From Thiohalomonas denitrificans (GTDB taxonomy: Bacteria; Pseudomonadota; Gammaproteobacteria; Thiohalomonadales; Thiohalomonadaceae), in NCBI RefSeq assembly GCF_016841685.1, contig NZ_JAENYR010000009.1, forward strand, positions 1-64,000: DNA of 64,000 nucleotides. The letters run 5' to 3'. The notes under the pieces were generated by a model. That model did not search any database. It was not told the origin of the DNA and saw only the letters and a program-made list of their open reading frames with translations. Positions 47,614 to 54,546 of this stretch are shown here, in pieces (the first letter of the stretch is position 1; every line of letters begins with the position of its first letter). A program made the position numbers and the translations under genes.

Positions 47614-47708
47614 GCCAACCCCTTTTTCTTGTTAGCAGCACAGTGTCTAACATCGACTGCCCGAGCGTCAACTCGCCATGCCGCAGCAACAGGGCCCCGC
47701 ATATTTTA

Positions 47709-47952
47709 GAAGCGAGCGGTGTCACTCCTTGATAGCAGGTCGTCGGCAGCACGCCGCCAGGGATGGCGGTGTTAGACAATGCAGGAGCACACTTGTCGAG
47801 GGATGCTGCCCTCGAGCGTACACGGATGAAAGATGATTGCTCCTGCATAATCTTCACTTCCTACATCCCTGTAGGTCGTATTCACAGCGTACCGGCTATC
47901 AAGGACTTGGTTCGCTCGCCGGCATCAAAAATGGGGGTATGCGCTTACCCTG
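47709..47952. repeat. 244-bp direct repeat, copy 1, containing a foldback element
   Basis: Almost identical to 48711-48954. Inside, 47712-47736 and 47895-47919 form inverted ends (GCGAGCG and TCCTTGATAGC parts pair). ATGCAGGAGCA (from 47780) and TGCTCCTGCAT are a perfect inner inverted repeat, and CCGCC-AGGGAT-GGCGG, CTCGAGGG-type and CCTACATCCCTGTAGG hairpins are also present. An open frame crosses it but is not supported as coding (see rejected items). Confidence 0.93.
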
Positions 47953-48011: not shown

Positions 48012-48632
48012 CTATACGCCCAGCAGATCGGCAATGACCCGTGCCTGATGCATCATCTCCAGGGCGTCGGGTTCCCGGCCGCACCACAGCAACCCCTCTC
48101 CCGCTCCGCTGGCGGCAAGCAGCTCCAGCATTTCCCGAAGTGCCCGCGACTCGACACGGCTCCCTGTGCAGCGCCGAATGGCCAGCCGCCCCGGTCCGCG
48201 GCAACTCCTTCCGTCGGACGAGCAGATATCCACCCGCTCGTCTGCATACTCCGGTGCGGCAATCAGACAAACCGGAGCAAGCTCGGCCCATCCTGCGCCA
48301 AAAGCAATCCGCGGGGGAGGCTCACACCCGGAATCGGCGACGAACCCACCCAGGCGTTCACCCACAAGCGCCGCAAGTGCGAGCAACCGGCCGGGATCGA
48401 TCGATGCCGCCTCTTCGCTCGGCAACTCCAGATAGAAACGGAAGTCTTCACCGGTATCATCACGCCATTCGTCGGCCCGCTCCCGAGTCAGTCCAAGCCA
48501 ATCGGGCACTGGCACCACCACCGCCGAAAATTCACCGGCGTAATAGCCAAGGCGCCAATCCCCGGGCAGATCATCCGGGTAAAAACGCCCCTGCCACCTG
48601 TCATGGTCCCAACCATAGGCCCCAATCCGCAC
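48012..48632 (-). CDS. DUF72-like protein (YecE family), short
   Basis: 206 aa. The N-terminus MRIGAYGWDHDRWQGRFYPDD resembles the start of DUF72 proteins (MRIGTSGWSYxxWxGxFYP). The family forms a TIM-barrel of unknown function and is usually about 240-280 aa, so this member is short; the usual central motifs are hard to find. It stands alone between two 244-bp direct repeats, in the space between mlaF and mlaA. It may be a diverged or decaying copy. The DUF72 assignment rests mainly on the first 30 residues. Confidence 0.6.
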   Translation of the reverse strand: MRIGAYGWDHDRWQGRFYPDDLPGDWRLGYYAGEFSAVVVPVPDWLGLTRERADEWRDDTGEDFRFYLELPSEEAASIDPGRLLALAALVGERLGGFVADSGCEPPPRIAFGAGWAELAPVCLIAAPEYADERVDICSSDGRSCRGPGRLAIRRCTGSRVESRALREMLELLAASGAGEGLLWCGREPDALEMMHQARVIADLLGV

Positions 48633-48710
48633 GAAGGTTCTCCTGCTATTCTGTAAACCGCGGCAATGATAACCTGCCTGCCTCTGGCTCCCAGGGCAAC
48701 CGCCTACTTT

Positions 48711-48954
48711 GAAGCGAGCGGTGTAAGTCCTTGATAGCAGGTCGTCGGCAGCACGCCGCCAGGGATGGCGGTGTTAGACAATGCAGGAGCACACTTGTCG
48801 AGGGATGCTGCCCTCGAGCATACACGGATGAAAGATGATTGCTCCTGCATCATCTTCACTTCCTACATCCCTGTAGGTCGTATTCACAGCGTATCGGCTA
48901 TCAAGGACTTGGTTCGCTCGCCGGCATCAAAAATGGGAGTATGCGTTTACCCTG
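48711..48954. repeat. 244-bp direct repeat, copy 2, containing a foldback element
   Basis: Same length and orientation as 47709-47952 with only scattered substitutions. Its outer inverted ends (48714-48738 and 48897-48921) pair better than in copy 1, because AAGTCCTTGATAGC is fully matched. The region from here to the mlaA start holds no other recognisable feature. Confidence 0.93.
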
Positions 48955-49115
48955 CTCTGGCTCCATAGCAAGAGGCCCTGGACGGGACAAACCTGCCCTC
49001 CCGAACACCCGGAGCTTTGCAGAGAATCACGCCAAGTCGCCATCGGCCTTGATCACCACACCCCCGCCTGCGGATAATGCGCGTCCTTAGAGTCCGGGAA
49101 AGAAGGAATAATCAG

Positions 49116-49895
49116 GTGCTGCCAACCCGCACAACGGCCATGGCCGGAGTACTGTTTCTGCTTGCCGGCGCTGCCGGCGCACAGGAAGCCTGGCCCGAGG
49201 AGCCCCACGATCCGCTGGAAGGCTTCAACCGAGCCGTCTACCGTTTCAATGACACCTTTGATCGGACGCTGCTCAAGCCTGTCGCCCAGACCTATCAGGA
49301 TGTGCTTCCCAGGCCGGTCAACCGCGGCATTTCCAATTTCTTCGGCAATCTCGGCGACGTGGTCAACCTCGTCAACAATCTGCTTCAGTTCAAATTCAAG
49401 CAGGCGGTCTCCGACGCAGGCCGCATAACCTTCAACACCACGGTGGGGTTGGGCGGACTTATCGACGTGGCCACGCCAATGGATTTCCCCAAGCATAACG
49501 AAGACTTTGGACAGACGCTGGGTTACTGGGGTCTGGGAAGCGGCCCCTATCTGGTGCTGCCGTTCCTCGGACCCAGCACGCTGCGCGACGGCTTCGGTCG
49601 GATCCCGGATGGCTACGCCTATCCCGTGTACCGGTTGGATGACGAGACTACCCGCTGGAGCCTGATTGGCCTGGAAGCGGTGGATACGCGTGCCGGACTG
49701 CTGCGTGCCAGCCGCGTGCTTGAGGAGGCCGCACTGGATCCCTACGGATTCATGCGGGATTCCTACCTGCAGCGACGACAGAGCCTGGTCCACGACGGCA
49801 GCCCGCCGATGATGGACTCGGATCCGTTTCTGGACGATTCCTTCCTGGATGATGATTCGTTCCTGGACAGCCCCGATTCCGGCGGCGCGCCCTAA
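49116..49895 (+). CDS. mlaA: MlaA (VacJ) family outer-membrane lipid-asymmetry protein
   Basis: 259 aa from GTG 49116 (GAAGGAATAATCAG upstream); ATG 49140 is a shorter alternative. MlaA removes phospholipids from the outer leaflet and hands them to MlaC. Family motifs DPLEGFNRAVYRFND, RGISNFFGNLGDVVNLVNNLLQ, DFGQTLGYWG and GPYLVLPFLGPSTLRDG are intact. The signal peptide ends AAGAQ and has no lipobox cysteine, unlike E. coli MlaA. An acidic C-terminal tail repeats FLDD/SFLDD. It faces away from mlaFEDCB but is only 1.5 kb from it. Confidence 0.93.
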   Translation: MLPTRTTAMAGVLFLLAGAAGAQEAWPEEPHDPLEGFNRAVYRFNDTFDRTLLKPVAQTYQDVLPRPVNRGISNFFGNLGDVVNLVNNLLQFKFKQAVSDAGRITFNTTVGLGGLIDVATPMDFPKHNEDFGQTLGYWGLGSGPYLVLPFLGPSTLRDGFGRIPDGYAYPVYRLDDETTRWSLIGLEAVDTRAGLLRASRVLEEAALDPYGFMRDSYLQRRQSLVHDGSPPMMDSDPFLDDSFLDDDSFLDSPDSGGAP

Positions 49896-49915: not shown

Positions 49916-50902
49916 ATGCTGCTGTCATCTTCACTCGCCGTACTGGCCGGTTTCGCCCTGCTGGTGTGGGGTGCCGATCGCTTCGTGGAAGGCGCAGCCG
50001 CAATCGCCCGCAACCTGGGCATCACACCCATGGTGATCGGCCTGACCGTGGTCGGGGTAGGCACCTCCGCCCCGGAAATACTGGTATCCGCCACTGCCGC
50101 CTGGGCCGGCAGCCCGGATATGGGGGTCGGCAACGCAATCGGTTCCAATATCACCAACATTGCGCTGGTGCTGGGCGCGACGGCGGTGATTACGCCACTT
50201 GCGGTACGTTCGGAGACCTTGCGCCGCGAATTCCCGCTACTGCTGGTGGTAATGCTGATCGCTCTGGGACTGCTGCTGGACGGGCACCTGGGGCGGCTTG
50301 ATGGTACGCTCCTGGTGCTGGGCATGGGCTTGGTCATCTACTGGATCGTTACCCTTGCCCTTCAGCAGCGTGCTGGCGGGGAAGCCGACCCGCTGGATGC
50401 CGAGTACAGCAACGAACTTCCTCCGGAAATGGGCACCGCCAAGGCGATATTCTGGCTGGTGGTGGGCATAATGGTGCTGGTTGGCAGTTCACGGCTGCTG
50501 GTCTGGGGCGCGGTCAATATCGCCCAGTGGCTCGAGGTGCCGGATCTGATTATCGGGCTGACCATCGTCGCCCTGGGCACCAGCCTCCCGGAACTGGCTG
50601 CCTCGATCATGAGCGCGTTGAAGGGAGAACACGACATTGCTATCGGCAACGTCTTGGGCTCCAATATGTTCAACCTGCTGGCCGTGCTGGGCATGCCCGG
50701 GTTGATTCACCCTGCCGTGCTTCAGGGAGATGTTCTCACCCGCGACTACCCGATCATGATCGGCCTTAGCATAGCGCTGTTCGCCATGGCCTACGGATTC
50801 CGTAAACCCGGCCATATCAGCCGCACCGAAGGCGGTATCCTGCTAGCCGCCTACGTCGGCTACATGTGGCTGCTGTATGAGAGCGTTCAGGGTGCCGTCT
50901 GA
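49916..50902 (+). CDS. yrbG: Sodium/calcium exchanger family protein YrbG
   Basis: 328 aa with about ten membrane helices. Two Na+/Ca2+ exchanger repeats carry the ion-binding motifs GVGTSAPEILVS and ALGTSLPELAAS in inverted topology. YrbG sits next to kdsD in E. coli as well. The substrate ion has not been firmly shown for YrbG. Confidence 0.94.
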   Translation: MLLSSSLAVLAGFALLVWGADRFVEGAAAIARNLGITPMVIGLTVVGVGTSAPEILVSATAAWAGSPDMGVGNAIGSNITNIALVLGATAVITPLAVRSETLRREFPLLLVVMLIALGLLLDGHLGRLDGTLLVLGMGLVIYWIVTLALQQRAGGEADPLDAEYSNELPPEMGTAKAIFWLVVGIMVLVGSSRLLVWGAVNIAQWLEVPDLIIGLTIVALGTSLPELAASIMSALKGEHDIAIGNVLGSNMFNLLAVLGMPGLIHPAVLQGDVLTRDYPIMIGLSIALFAMAYGFRKPGHISRTEGGILLAAYVGYMWLLYESVQGAV

Positions 50903-50934
50903 TGACCGCACAATTCACAAATTAGAGGTTAACG

Positions 50935-51141
50935 ATGCAGACCGAACAATTCACCGTGCAAAACGTAAAATGTGCCGGTTGCGCGAGCAATATCGAAACC
51001 GGGCTAAAAGCGTTACCCGGTGTCAGCGATGTCGAGGTGATGGTTGAGGGCGGCACGGTCACCGTAAAAGGGGATACTCTGGACCGGGGTCAGCTCAGCG
51101 CCAAACTCACCGAGCTTGGCTACCCGGAGGCATGGCTCTGA
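50935..51141 (+). CDS. Small heavy-metal-associated (HMA) domain protein, CopZ-like
   Basis: 68 aa. A complete single HMA ferredoxin-like domain with the metal-binding motif Cys13-Ala-Gly-Cys16 (VKCAGCASNIETGL). Such proteins carry Cu(I) or other soft metals to P-type ATPases, but no such ATPase is in this window. The AGAGGTTAACG before the ATG is a good ribosome-binding site. Its end overlaps the kdsD start by 10 bases, so it is translated with the LPS genes. Confidence 0.9.
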   Translation: MQTEQFTVQNVKCAGCASNIETGLKALPGVSDVEVMVEGGTVTVKGDTLDRGQLSAKLTELGYPEAWL

Positions 51142-52160
51142 AAGTGCCATTTGACATGAAACAGCACACTGGCACACCACGAACGGCCGACGACGTCCGT
51201 CTTTGCAACCTGGGCCGCGCGGTGCTTGAGACCGAGGCCCATGCAGTAGCCTGTCTGGCGGAGCGTCTTGATGGTGAATTCGCCACTGCATGCCGACTGA
51301 TGTTGGCCTGTGAAGGGCGGGTGGTAGTCACGGGCATGGGAAAATCGGGCCATATCGGGGCCAAAATTGCCGCCACCCTGGCCAGCACCGGCACTCCGGC
51401 CTTTTTCGTGCATCCCGGCGAAGCCAGCCATGGTGATCTGGGGATGATCACGCCCAAGGACCTAGTGCTGGCGCTGTCGAATTCCGGGGAAACCGACGAA
51501 CTGCTGACCATCCTGCCGCTCATCAAGCGGCTGGCCGTTCCGATGATCGCCTTTACCGGAAAACCGGCTTCACGTCTTGCGCAGACCGCAACCGTGCACA
51601 TCGACGTCTCGGTGGAAAAAGAGGCGTGTCCGCTGGGTCTGGCGCCGACGGCCAGTACCACTGCGACCCTGGCCATGGGCGATGCCATGGCCGTGGCCCT
51701 GCTGGAGTCACGTGGCTTTACCGCCGAGGATTTCGCCCGTTCTCATCCGGCGGGCACACTGGGCCGGCGTCTGCTGTTGCGAATCGAGGATTTGATGCAT
51801 ACCGGTGAAGCATCGCCGCGGGTCCATGAAAAGGCACGCCTTTCCGAGGCACTGGTGGAGATGACCCAGAAGGGCCTGGGAATGACCTCGGTCGTAGATG
51901 CCGAAGAGCGGCTGATCGGCATCTTCACCGATGGCGACCTGCGCCGCCTTTTGGACCACGGCGACTTCCATTTTTCCAACTTGCCGATTGCCGAGGTCAT
52001 GCACCAGGGCGGCATCACCGCCCGCCCCGCCATGTTGGCCGCGGAGGCTTTGAAGATAATGGAGTCCGGCAAGATCAACGCGTTACCGGTGGTGGACGAT
52101 GAGGGAAAGCTGCTGGGCGCGCTCAATATGCACGATCTGCTGCGGGCCGGCGTGGTATAG
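51132..52160 (+). CDS. kdsD: Arabinose-5-phosphate isomerase KdsD
   Basis: 342 aa. It converts ribulose 5-phosphate to arabinose 5-phosphate for KDO. An N-terminal SIS domain (VVVTGMGKSGHIGAKIAATLASTGTPAFFVHPGEASHGDLGM in outline) is followed by two CBS domains (from about residue 215). ATG 51132 overlaps the HMA gene; ATG 51156 (MKQHTGTP) is an alternative. Confidence 0.96.
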   Translation: MALKVPFDMKQHTGTPRTADDVRLCNLGRAVLETEAHAVACLAERLDGEFATACRLMLACEGRVVVTGMGKSGHIGAKIAATLASTGTPAFFVHPGEASHGDLGMITPKDLVLALSNSGETDELLTILPLIKRLAVPMIAFTGKPASRLAQTATVHIDVSVEKEACPLGLAPTASTTATLAMGDAMAVALLESRGFTAEDFARSHPAGTLGRRLLLRIEDLMHTGEASPRVHEKARLSEALVEMTQKGLGMTSVVDAEERLIGIFTDGDLRRLLDHGDFHFSNLPIAEVMHQGGITARPAMLAAEALKIMESGKINALPVVDDEGKLLGALNMHDLLRAGVV

Positions 52161-52222: not shown

Positions 52223-52747
52223 ATGCAGGATATACTGGAAAAAGCCGCCCGAATCCGCCTGGTGATCTTTGATGTCGACGGTGTGCTGACCGATGGCAGT
52301 CTGTTCATCGGCGATGATGGCCAGGAATACAAGGCCTTCTATTCGCGTGACGGTCACGGCATGAAAATCCTGCAGGCCAGCGGCGTCGAGATCGGCATCA
52401 TCACCGGCCGCACCTCGGAAGTGGTCAGGCTGCGCATGGAAAGCCTCGGAATTCGGCACGTCTACCAGGGGCGTATGGAAAAACTTCCGGCCTTCGAGGA
52501 CCTGCTTGCAGCCACCGGAGTGCTTGCCGAAGAGGTCGCCTATGTGGGTGACGATATCATGGACCTTCCGGTCATGCGGCGGGTCGGTCTGGCAGTGGCG
52601 GTTCAGGACGCCCATACACTGGTCAAGAAACACAGTCACTGGGTCACCCCCAATGGAGGCGGCCGGGGCGCGGGCCGGGATACTTGTGAACTCATTATGG
52701 AGGCGCAGGGCACTCTGGACGCGCAGCTTGTTCCCTATCTGCGATGA
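52223..52747 (+). CDS. kdsC: KDO-8-phosphate phosphatase KdsC
   Basis: 174 aa from ATG 52223. It is a HAD-family phosphatase with the nucleophile Asp17 and acid Asp19 (FDVDGVLTDG) and the later YVGDDIMDLPVM. It releases KDO from KDO-8-phosphate. The frame also opens at TTG 52217. It overlaps lptC by four bases. Confidence 0.97.
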   Translation: MQDILEKAARIRLVIFDVDGVLTDGSLFIGDDGQEYKAFYSRDGHGMKILQASGVEIGIITGRTSEVVRLRMESLGIRHVYQGRMEKLPAFEDLLAATGVLAEEVAYVGDDIMDLPVMRRVGLAVAVQDAHTLVKKHSHWVTPNGGGRGAGRDTCELIMEAQGTLDAQLVPYLR

Positions 52748-53313
52748 ATCGTCGCGTTCTACTCTTGGTGTTATTCGCTTTGGGGGCTCTCCTGTTGAGC
52801 AACTGGCTCTCCCGGCAGGCTGAAGACAAGCGAGAGAGGCGTGAACAGGTCCGTCGCCAGATTCCCGATTACTTTCTGACGGATTTCACCGCCACCACAA
52901 TGGGACCGAAAGGTCAGCCCGAGTACCGGCTCTCTGCCATGCGTATGGAGCACTATCCTGATACGGATACGGCCGTGCTAATGCAGCCGCGTATCCTGCT
53001 CTATGGGGATGGTGAGGCAAACTGGCATGCCCGCGCCGATGGCGGCCGGGTAGGCCCCGGGGGCGAAGTGGTGTACCTTAACGGCAATGTGGAAATCCAT
53101 CAGCCGGGCGAAACCGGCAGCCCTCCACGCATGTTGGAAACCGAGCATATCCAGATATACCCGCAGAAGAATTATGCGGAGACCGATGCCCCGGTAACGA
53201 TCACGGGACCGCAGACTCAAATCGATGGAGTGGGAATGCGGGCTTACTTTGTGCAACAGCGTCTTGAACTGCTTTCCGAGGTGACTGGAACCCATGAACC
53301 GATCCGCCGCTAA
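52744..53313 (+). CDS. lptC: LPS export protein LptC
   Basis: 189 aa. An N-terminal membrane helix (about 4-19) anchors the beta-jellyroll (DYFLTDFTATTMGPKGQPEYRLSA). LptC links LptBFG to LptA. Its last 20 bases overlap lptA. Confidence 0.94.
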   Translation: MNRRVLLLVLFALGALLLSNWLSRQAEDKRERREQVRRQIPDYFLTDFTATTMGPKGQPEYRLSAMRMEHYPDTDTAVLMQPRILLYGDGEANWHARADGGRVGPGGEVVYLNGNVEIHQPGETGSPPRMLETEHIQIYPQKNYAETDAPVTITGPQTQIDGVGMRAYFVQQRLELLSEVTGTHEPIRR

Positions 53314-53803
53314 TCTATTCTGGCTCCTGCTAGTGTTCGCCCCATCCATTGCATGGGCGCTCTCCAGCGATCGCGAACAGCCGATCCATATTCGTGCCGC
53401 CAGCGTCGAGATCAACGAAAAAACCGGAGTCAGTGTCTACACCGGCGATGTCAATGTAACCCAGGGCAGTATGGAACTCACCGCCGAAGAGTTGATTGTC
53501 TATCACGAAAACGGTGAGGTAAATCGCATGGAGGGTGAAGGCAAACCCGCCACCTTCCGACAGCAGCCGGACGGGGCCGCACACGAGGTGCGCGGCGAGG
53601 CACTGCGCATCGAATACGATGCCGATGCCGAGAAGGCCTATCTTGTCGGGCAAGGCCATGTCTGGCGGGGCAATGATGAATTTCTGGGCGAACGTATTGT
53701 CTTCGATACCGTAGAAAGCATCGTTCACGCCACCAGCGGCGATGATGATCGGGTGCGCGCAGTAATCCAGCCCAGAAAGGACAAGGAGAATGATTCGCCA
53801 TGA
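53294..53803 (+). CDS. lptA: LPS periplasmic bridge protein LptA
   Basis: 169 aa. The signal peptide ([22 protein letters not shown]) precedes the OstA-like beta-jellyroll ([21 protein letters not shown]). LptA polymers bridge the periplasm from LptC to LptD. It overlaps lptB by four bases. Confidence 0.95.
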
Positions 53804-54546
53804 CCGCTCCAGCCGCGCAGCCGGCACGTCTGGCCGGACTCGGGCTGGCCAAACAGTATCGTTCCAAAACCGTAGTCGACGACGTTTCTGTCGAAATCTA
53901 CAGCGGCGAAGTGGTCGGACTGCTCGGTCCCAACGGCGCCGGCAAAACCACCTGCTTTTACATGATCGTGGGGCTCGTTCCCTGTGATGCCGGGCATATC
54001 CTTCTCGACGAGGAGGATCTCACCCGCCATCCCATGCACCGCCGGGCACGCCGGGGTGTCGGCTACCTTCCGCAGGAGGCATCCATCTTTCGCAAGCTCA
54101 CTGTTGCCGAAAACATCCTGGCGATCCTTGAAACGCGAGCGGATCTGGAACGCAGCGAGCGCGGGGACCACCTGGAATCGCTCCTGGAGGAGCTGCATAT
54201 TACCCATATCCGCAACAATGTCGGCATGAGCCTGTCAGGGGGTGAGCGGCGGCGGGTCGAAATTGCCCGGGCACTCGCCACCGAACCCCGATTTATCCTT
54301 CTGGATGAGCCGTTCGCCGGCGTGGACCCGATTTCGGTAATCGATATCCAGGGCATCATCAAGCACCTTCAGGAACGCGGTATCGGCGTACTGATAACCG
54401 ACCACAACGTTCGCGAAACGCTGGGAATCTGTGATCGCGGTTACATTCTCAACCAGGGCCGGGTGATCGCCCAGGGAAATCCCGACCAGCTGTTGTCCAA
54501 TCAACAGGTGCGGGACGTGTACCTGGGCCAGCACTTCCGGCTCTGA
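53800..54546 (+). CDS. lptB: LPS export ATPase LptB
   Basis: 248 aa. ABC ATPase with Walker [10 protein letters not shown], signature [14 protein letters not shown] and Walker [14 protein letters not shown], ending with the LptB-typical [12 protein letters not shown]. It energises LPS extraction by LptFG, which are encoded elsewhere. A 267-bp gap without clear features follows before rpoN. Confidence 0.97.

Follow-up and report, generated by a model that had tools for sequence, protein, structure and literature searches.

A stand-alone HMA-domain gene between yrbG and kdsD in an LPS operon of Thiohalomonas denitrificans and its relatives: probably a cytosolic metal chaperone or buffer

The locus

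The window is the whole stretch of DNA that was analysed, 64,000 nucleotides of Thiohalomonas denitrificans (RefSeq assembly GCF_016841685.1, contig NZ_JAENYR010000009.1, positions 1 to 64,000 of the forward strand). An LPS operon crosses it on the plus strand. The gene mlaA (49077-49895; Pfam MlaA, 274.5 bits) lies upstream of yrbG, which encodes a CaCA-type Na+/Ca2+ exchanger (49916-50902; TIGR00367, 266.3 bits, cut-off 179.65). Downstream come kdsD, encoding an arabinose-5-phosphate (A5P) isomerase of the KpsF/KdsD type (51132-52160, with a possible start at 51156; TIGR00393, 362.1 bits, cut-off 203.7), and kdsC, encoding a KDO-8-phosphate phosphatase (52223-52747; NF007019, 216.9 bits, cut-off 208). 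The lptC, lptA and lptB-like genes that follow (52744-54546) are ORFs named by their position relative to the order in Escherichia coli K-12. A further profile, NF008141, matches the kdsD product from residue 21 with 446.8 bits, under its cut-off of 505.

Farther upstream, between mlaF and mlaA, a 247-nt direct repeat (97%) occupies 47706-47952 and 48708-48954 and flanks a minus-strand ORF (48012-48632) that has no Pfam match and looks DUF72-like by eye. The repeat has at least 49 matching pieces in its own genome and 12 shorter pieces in the sister species; one of six other family members has short pieces only and five have none. Folded as RNA it forms a long hairpin (z -4.1) with no Rfam match, and it may be a dispersed element of the MITE or BIME kind.

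The subject of this report is the gene that sits between yrbG and kdsD, at 50935-51141 on the plus strand. It starts with ATG 32 nt after the end of yrbG, has a Shine-Dalgarno-like AGAGG (50924-50928, plus strand, read from the sequence) 6 nt ahead of that ATG, and encodes in 68 codons a protein of 68 aa, MQTEQFTVQNVKCAGCASNIETGLKALPGVSDVEVMVEGGTVTVKGDTLDRGQLSAKLTELGYPEAWL. The product scores 54.4 bits on the curated Pfam HMA model (PF00403, cut-off 24.8) and contains the CxxC metal-binding motif, with codons at 50971-50982 on the plus strand (C-A-G-C, preceded by V-K). Both cysteines, C13 and C16, are invariant in the 19 aligned strong-match members, and inspection of MQTEQFTVQNVKC by eye shows no signal peptide. 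The original prediction of a complete CXXC HMA gene in this place thus stands, with the ORF, the Pfam match and flanking genes identified by curated models all agreeing. A chance ORF is ruled out by orthologues at the matching place, by the conservation of that place and by dN/dS, so that the gene can be taken as confirmed.

Selection keeps it. Against the sister species (G001) its dN/dS is 0.058, next to 0.086 for yrbG and 0.077 for kdsD, and over 11 pairs the value ranges from 0.06 to 0.34. The AlphaFold model of the protein (pLDDT 92) has a CopZ-like fold over its full length. Its top structural match is the CopZ structure 2qif (Z 13.3, rmsd 1.1, 67 residues aligned, 30% identity), followed by CopZ 6ff2 (Z 13.1); ZntA and MerP likewise occur among the matches. 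The HMA profile itself matches 27 PDB sequences, 18 named as copper or CopZ proteins and 4 as zinc ATPases or ZntA.

The HMA gene had also been described as overlapping kdsD by 10 bases, and as translationally coupled to it through that overlap. This part of the prediction fares poorly. The overlap presumes a start at ATG 51132, and GGAGG stands only 1 nt from that codon. Candidate kdsD starts in the window fall at -10, +2 and +14 relative to the HMA stop, the last being ATG 51156; in the sister species they fall at +8, +20 and +38, every in-frame candidate thus lying past the HMA stop. The spacing of GGAGG and the lack of an overlapping in-frame start in the sister species make the 10-base overlap doubtful, and ATG 51156 appears at least as likely a start as ATG 51132. 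A conserved 10-base overlap is also unsupported by the start candidates of other relatives. In 11 other loci a candidate kdsD ATG does lie within the end of the HMA gene (overlap of 1, 4 or 8 bases), and coupling may be real in those.

A conserved place in the operon

Is the yrbG-HMA-kdsD order a peculiarity of one strain? A first survey covered 56 genomes, from the genome of the window out to the class, and counted as strong any match of at least 56% identity. It found an HMA match at E<=0.001 in 31 genomes and a strong one in 19, the window's own included. Among these 19, kdsD lies directly downstream of the HMA gene in 18, and yrbG lies directly upstream in 17 of the 18 loci that have upstream sequence; the exceptions are a locus without kdsD (L009 in G014), one with the order mlaA-HMA-kdsD (L015 in G002) and one cut by the contig end (L008). 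A scan of named genomes, which used a DNA pattern fixing Val or Ile before KC, returned 80 loci: 33 with HMA-kdsD, one with yrbG-HMA (L035) and 46 elsewhere. The yrbG-HMA-kdsD order also occurs at L041, in a metagenome-assembled genome named Thiohalomonas.

An evenly spread sample of the class, which the genome names indicate to be Gammaproteobacteria, comprised 274 genomes. An HMA profile match at E<=1e-9 occurs in 79 of them and a KdsD match at E<=1e-60 in 257. The HMA gene stands directly upstream of kdsD in 32 genomes from 20 families, adjacency being taken from contig coordinates or from loci where the KdsD row is missing; in one of them (G233), which is excluded from the 257, a contig end leaves only part of kdsD. 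Three further genomes from two more families (G143, G090 and G219) have yrbG-HMA followed by kdsC or lptC, without kdsD. The G219 order is read on one contig, and that of G090 is pieced from two contig ends that both bear the HMA gene. Conversely, 226 of the 257 KdsD-bearing genomes have no such HMA gene adjoining kdsD at the thresholds used. The loci of the three surveys partly share genomes.

These surveys support the view that the yrbG-kdsD-kdsC-lptC operon houses a metal-carrier-type gene at a stable position. The conservation of order that the original prediction proposed to check is widespread, and a strain-specific insertion is ruled out by the presence of the gene across the sampled genomes. 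The prediction was to fall if the gene proved confined here to one strain and adjoined copper ATPases elsewhere, and neither is true of the copies at this locus. No paper on this HMA/yrbG/kdsD arrangement appeared among the literature matches listed, in a collection too limited to imply absence from print, and a search on motif strings gave no title on such a protein in the best 20 of 40 matches.

How the gene came to the junction was approached through a tree of HMA stretches. The 196 hits were reduced to 155 by dropping repeats of identical sequence and to 148 by dropping 7 short ones; over 65 columns the resulting tree is coarse, with many open forks. The label "kdsD/yrbG-linked" nevertheless changes only 4 times on it, where shuffled labels average 47.3. 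These 4 changes, of which the starred branches force at least 3, do not support a single clade of kdsD-linked copies. Beyond one branch (support 96/80) lie 65 of the 68 other unlinked copies together with one ATPase domain. Another group (100/89) unites 8 of 9 ATPase domains with all 10 copies near P-type ATPases; it hangs on the kdsD-linked side, where four kdsD-linked rows adjoin it. The pattern is compatible with a small number of entries at the yrbG-kdsD junction, perhaps a single one, followed by inheritance.

Two metagenome-assembled genomes carry HMA copies by lipid A genes. In one (L044:9989-10192) the copy follows lpxD-fabZ-lpxA-lpxB-rnhB-like genes, and in the other (L036:5844-6041) it lies downstream of lpxD-fabZ-like genes, both named by eye. 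These copies nest among kdsD-linked rows (99/90), which indicates that they moved to the lipid A genes.

Gain and loss of the neighbouring genes

The HMA gene is kept in four genomes without a close KdsD. In G143, G219 and G090 there is no KdsD at E<=1e-60 and no TIGR00393 match over the cut-off. KdsA scores over its cut-off in G090 and below it in G143 and G219; divergent Kdo-like genes may lie elsewhere in these three genomes, and no loss of KDO is claimed. No KdsD over the cut-off was found in the fourth, G014. The G219 locus (L153:4802-7855) reads yrbG-HMA-lptC-lptA-lptB, with lptA named by eye, and lacks kdsD as well as kdsC. In G014 (L035:10222-12708) the kdsD position after the HMA gene is filled by two unassigned ORFs and a second KdsC-like HAD gene.

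Four other genomes have the HMA gene at kdsD without an adjoining yrbG. The gene upstream is mlaA in G002, ubiA-like in G224 and G100, and dapB-like in G135, the last three by eye. G002 and G224 encode YrbG at another place in the genome. In G100 the best candidate reaches 85.4 bits on TIGR00367, short of the cut-off of 179.65.

Loss also runs in the opposite direction. Five genomes of the window's own family keep kdsD and have no intact HMA gene at the locus (G004, G007, G010, G013 and G019). In G004, G013 and G019, yrbG and kdsD are still neighbours; in G007 about 8 kb separates them, and in G010 there is no yrbG in the stretch examined. In G019 a 40-codon in-frame HMA remnant that has lost the second cysteine lies between yrbG and kdsD (L184:3773-3895).

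Since the HMA gene is kept in the absence of one or the other neighbour and lost where the neighbours stay, an obligate partnership with KdsD or with YrbG is ruled out. The long co-location is itself weak evidence of shared function because the mla-yrbG-kdsD-kdsC-lpt order is stable without any HMA gene, E. coli included.

Metal pumps and other HMA proteins

The genome of the window has three HMA matches, two inside frames of ATPase size and the third in the window protein, which is the only stand-alone HMA protein found there. Its three ATPase-IB1_Cu matches are all on contigs other than that of the window. Likewise, a partial ATPase query gave no match above 45 bits in the flanks of any of the 34 kdsD/yrbG-linked loci of the named-genome scan, where flanks reach up to 10 kb a side and are much shorter in some. 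The earlier remark that no copper ATPase is nearby holds. A Cu-type ATPase was present in all 50 genomes tested (42 carriers, 7 comparison genomes and G139), so co-occurrence cannot test a link between the HMA protein and such pumps. In the class sample, 44 of the 79 carriers fall outside the kdsD/yrbG-linked set; 27 of their loci were examined, the remaining 17 being placed by coordinates or left out, and a P-type ATPase match stands beside the HMA gene in 7 of the 27 and in none of the other 20.

Fifteen of the 20 genomes of the own family carry the HMA gene at this locus. In nine of these it is the only HMA match over the cut-off in a frame shorter than 450 aa, and the other six (G002, G003, G009, G011, G015 and G017) have a further short-frame match. 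Among the HMA-less genomes, no other stand-alone HMA protein was found in G004 (78% complete) or G013 (72%). Another is present in each of G007, G010 and G019 (84-99% complete): in G007 it adjoins an ATPase gene and a CsoR-like ORF, in G010 it is a paralogue located elsewhere, and in G019 it belongs to a MerR-ATPase-HMA row, the gene names in G007 and G019 being given by eye. In these three genomes, a small number, one cytosolic copper chaperone seems to have taken the place of another.

Variation next to the metal-binding cysteines

The CxxC motif is intact in all 61 kdsD/yrbG/lpt-linked copies longer than 55 aa. The copper chaperone CopZ has the motif MxCxxC, the Met being a core residue and not a ligand. 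The window protein has VKCAGC, and at this locus the position two residues ahead of the first Cys holds Val or Ile in 41 of 41 copies and Met in none. These 41 were found without pattern bias; the loci of the named-genome scan, whose pattern fixes Val/Ile, are excluded from this count and from those that follow. One copy near a contig end (L204), not among the 41, has no CxxC in the aligned stretch. The residue is Ile, Val or Leu in 22 of 22 other unlinked copies, a set in which Met-type copies may be under-sampled because these, like all the copies counted here, were found by kdsD-linked queries or the HMA profile. All 10 copies that lie near P-type ATPase genes have Met, where "near" denotes a match within 2.5 kb and some frames, of 223 and 367 aa, are maybe ATPase pieces; so do 12 of 14 ATPase HMA domains. 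With Met replaced in 41 of 41 copies, the metal or the partner may differ from that of CopZ.

What the protein may do

The reading we consider probable, with some reserve, is that the window protein is a cytosolic chaperone or buffer, for Cu(I) or a different soft metal, whose gene shares the LPS operon without being dedicated to LPS. It would be a small metallochaperone of the Atx1/CopZ fold whose two cysteines bind Cu(I), or another soft metal; it would buffer this metal in the cytosol and pass it on to P1B-type ATPases whose genes lie at other places in the genome. An ancient insertion at the yrbG-kdsD junction, perhaps a single one, would have been inherited by many families of the class, and the gene would stay there for the steady expression that the LPS operon gives and not for any action on KdsD or YrbG. 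A Cu(I) chaperone or buffer is favoured by the apparent chaperone replacement in G007, G010 and G019.

Could the metal be another one? A chaperone or buffer for zinc, cadmium or a metal of the mercury class, with Val/Ile-Lys-Cys marking the selectivity, is unlikely on balance. The distribution just described speaks for it, Val/Ile or Leu away from the pumps and Met next to them, as do ZntA and MerP among the structural matches. However, the Met that has been replaced is a core residue rather than a ligand, it is a Lys and not an acidic residue that precedes CxxC, the best fold matches are CopZ proteins, and queries of the kdsD-linked type may under-sample the Met-type unlinked copies.

The idea that the protein serves LPS directly, by keeping an inhibitory soft metal off KdsD or by linking metal stress to LPS output, has rather little probability. 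A5P isomerases are inhibited by zinc. The HMA gene adjoins kdsD in the 32 class genomes, the pairing persists without an adjoining yrbG in f82 and f117 genomes, and the lipid A loci of the two metagenome-assembled genomes would fit as well. A study of mixed heavy metals in another bacterium, Lampropedia (PMC10629017), reports kdsA-D expression as raised and gives copZ as a separate entry; it neither supports nor excludes an LPS-metal link at this locus. Against a direct role stand the four genomes that keep the HMA gene without a close KdsD, the five that keep kdsD without it, the 226 KdsD-bearing genomes with no such neighbour, and an operon order that is stable by itself, also in HMA-less E. 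coli. The functional link to KDO/LPS synthesis that had been proposed for the gene finds no backing in these comparisons. A more specific version, in which a distinct HMA subfamily with V/I-K-C-x-x-C and a GYP end acts as a cytosolic metal sensor, or as a guard of envelope assembly, that adjusts KDO/LPS supply to the copper or zinc status of the cell, is a long shot.

Least credible of all is an extension of the YrbG partnership suggested at the outset, in which the protein is an accessory carrying metal to or from the exchanger: yrbG is the usual upstream neighbour (17 of 18) and yrbG-HMA remains in three kdsD-less loci (G143, G219 and the pieced G090), but YrbG belongs to a calcium/sodium and not a soft-metal family, the HMA gene stands at kdsD without yrbG in G002, G224, G100 and G135, with G100 having no YrbG above threshold, and G004, G013 and G019 keep yrbG next to kdsD without an intact HMA gene.

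These results give a place to a small metalloprotein of wide conservation that none of the curated chaperone models tested recognises at its cut-off, and they show that stand-alone HMA genes need not adjoin a metal pump. Were the operon link functional, metal status would be tied to outer-membrane assembly; the present evidence makes this unlikely. The case recommends caution before function is read from gene neighbourhood.

Comparison with known systems

The E. coli K-12 yrbG-kdsD-kdsC-lptCAB operon has the same gene order as the window. It differs in having no HMA gene between yrbG and kdsD, which stand 13 nt apart.

The window protein does not qualify as MerP: it scores 22.6 bits on TIGR02052 against a cut-off of 92.55, no mer genes lie beside it, its neighbours being those of the LPS operon, and no signal peptide is seen by eye. 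With the HMA domains of CopA-type P1B ATPases it shares domain family and fold, but it is a stand-alone protein of 68 aa, and the ATPase domains mostly have Met (12 of 14).

Another comparison is with the unlinked NIKCGGC-type paralogues, found as a second copy in G009 and G010, in other members of the class, in Campylobacterota and in Arenibacter. Like the window protein they have Ile or Val before KCGGC and most end in GYP, and like its gene they mostly have no ATPase beside them (20 of 27 non-kdsD class loci). They differ from the kdsD-linked copies in lying across a tree branch (65 of 68 rows). Two that were inspected (L241:2200-2676 and L242:2866-3150) have a similar C-terminal tail with an additional Cys (SFVSCA-GR), a type of tail absent from the window protein.

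The CopZ/Atx1 chaperones (2qif, 6ff2, 1cpz) share with the window protein its length, the ferredoxin-like HMA fold, the place of CxxC and a Tyr near the C-terminus. It scores under every CopZ model tested (NF047957, 38.6 bits against a cut-off of 85; NF033794, 35.1 against 95; NF033795, 33.3 against 91; TIGR00003, 28.1 against 62), and these CopZ-type NCBIfam models are also the ones that the remaining 18 aligned members match. Unlike these chaperones, the copies at this locus have Val or Ile in place of the Met before CxxC, and the window gene, with no P-type copper ATPase gene adjoining it, has its home in an LPS operon.
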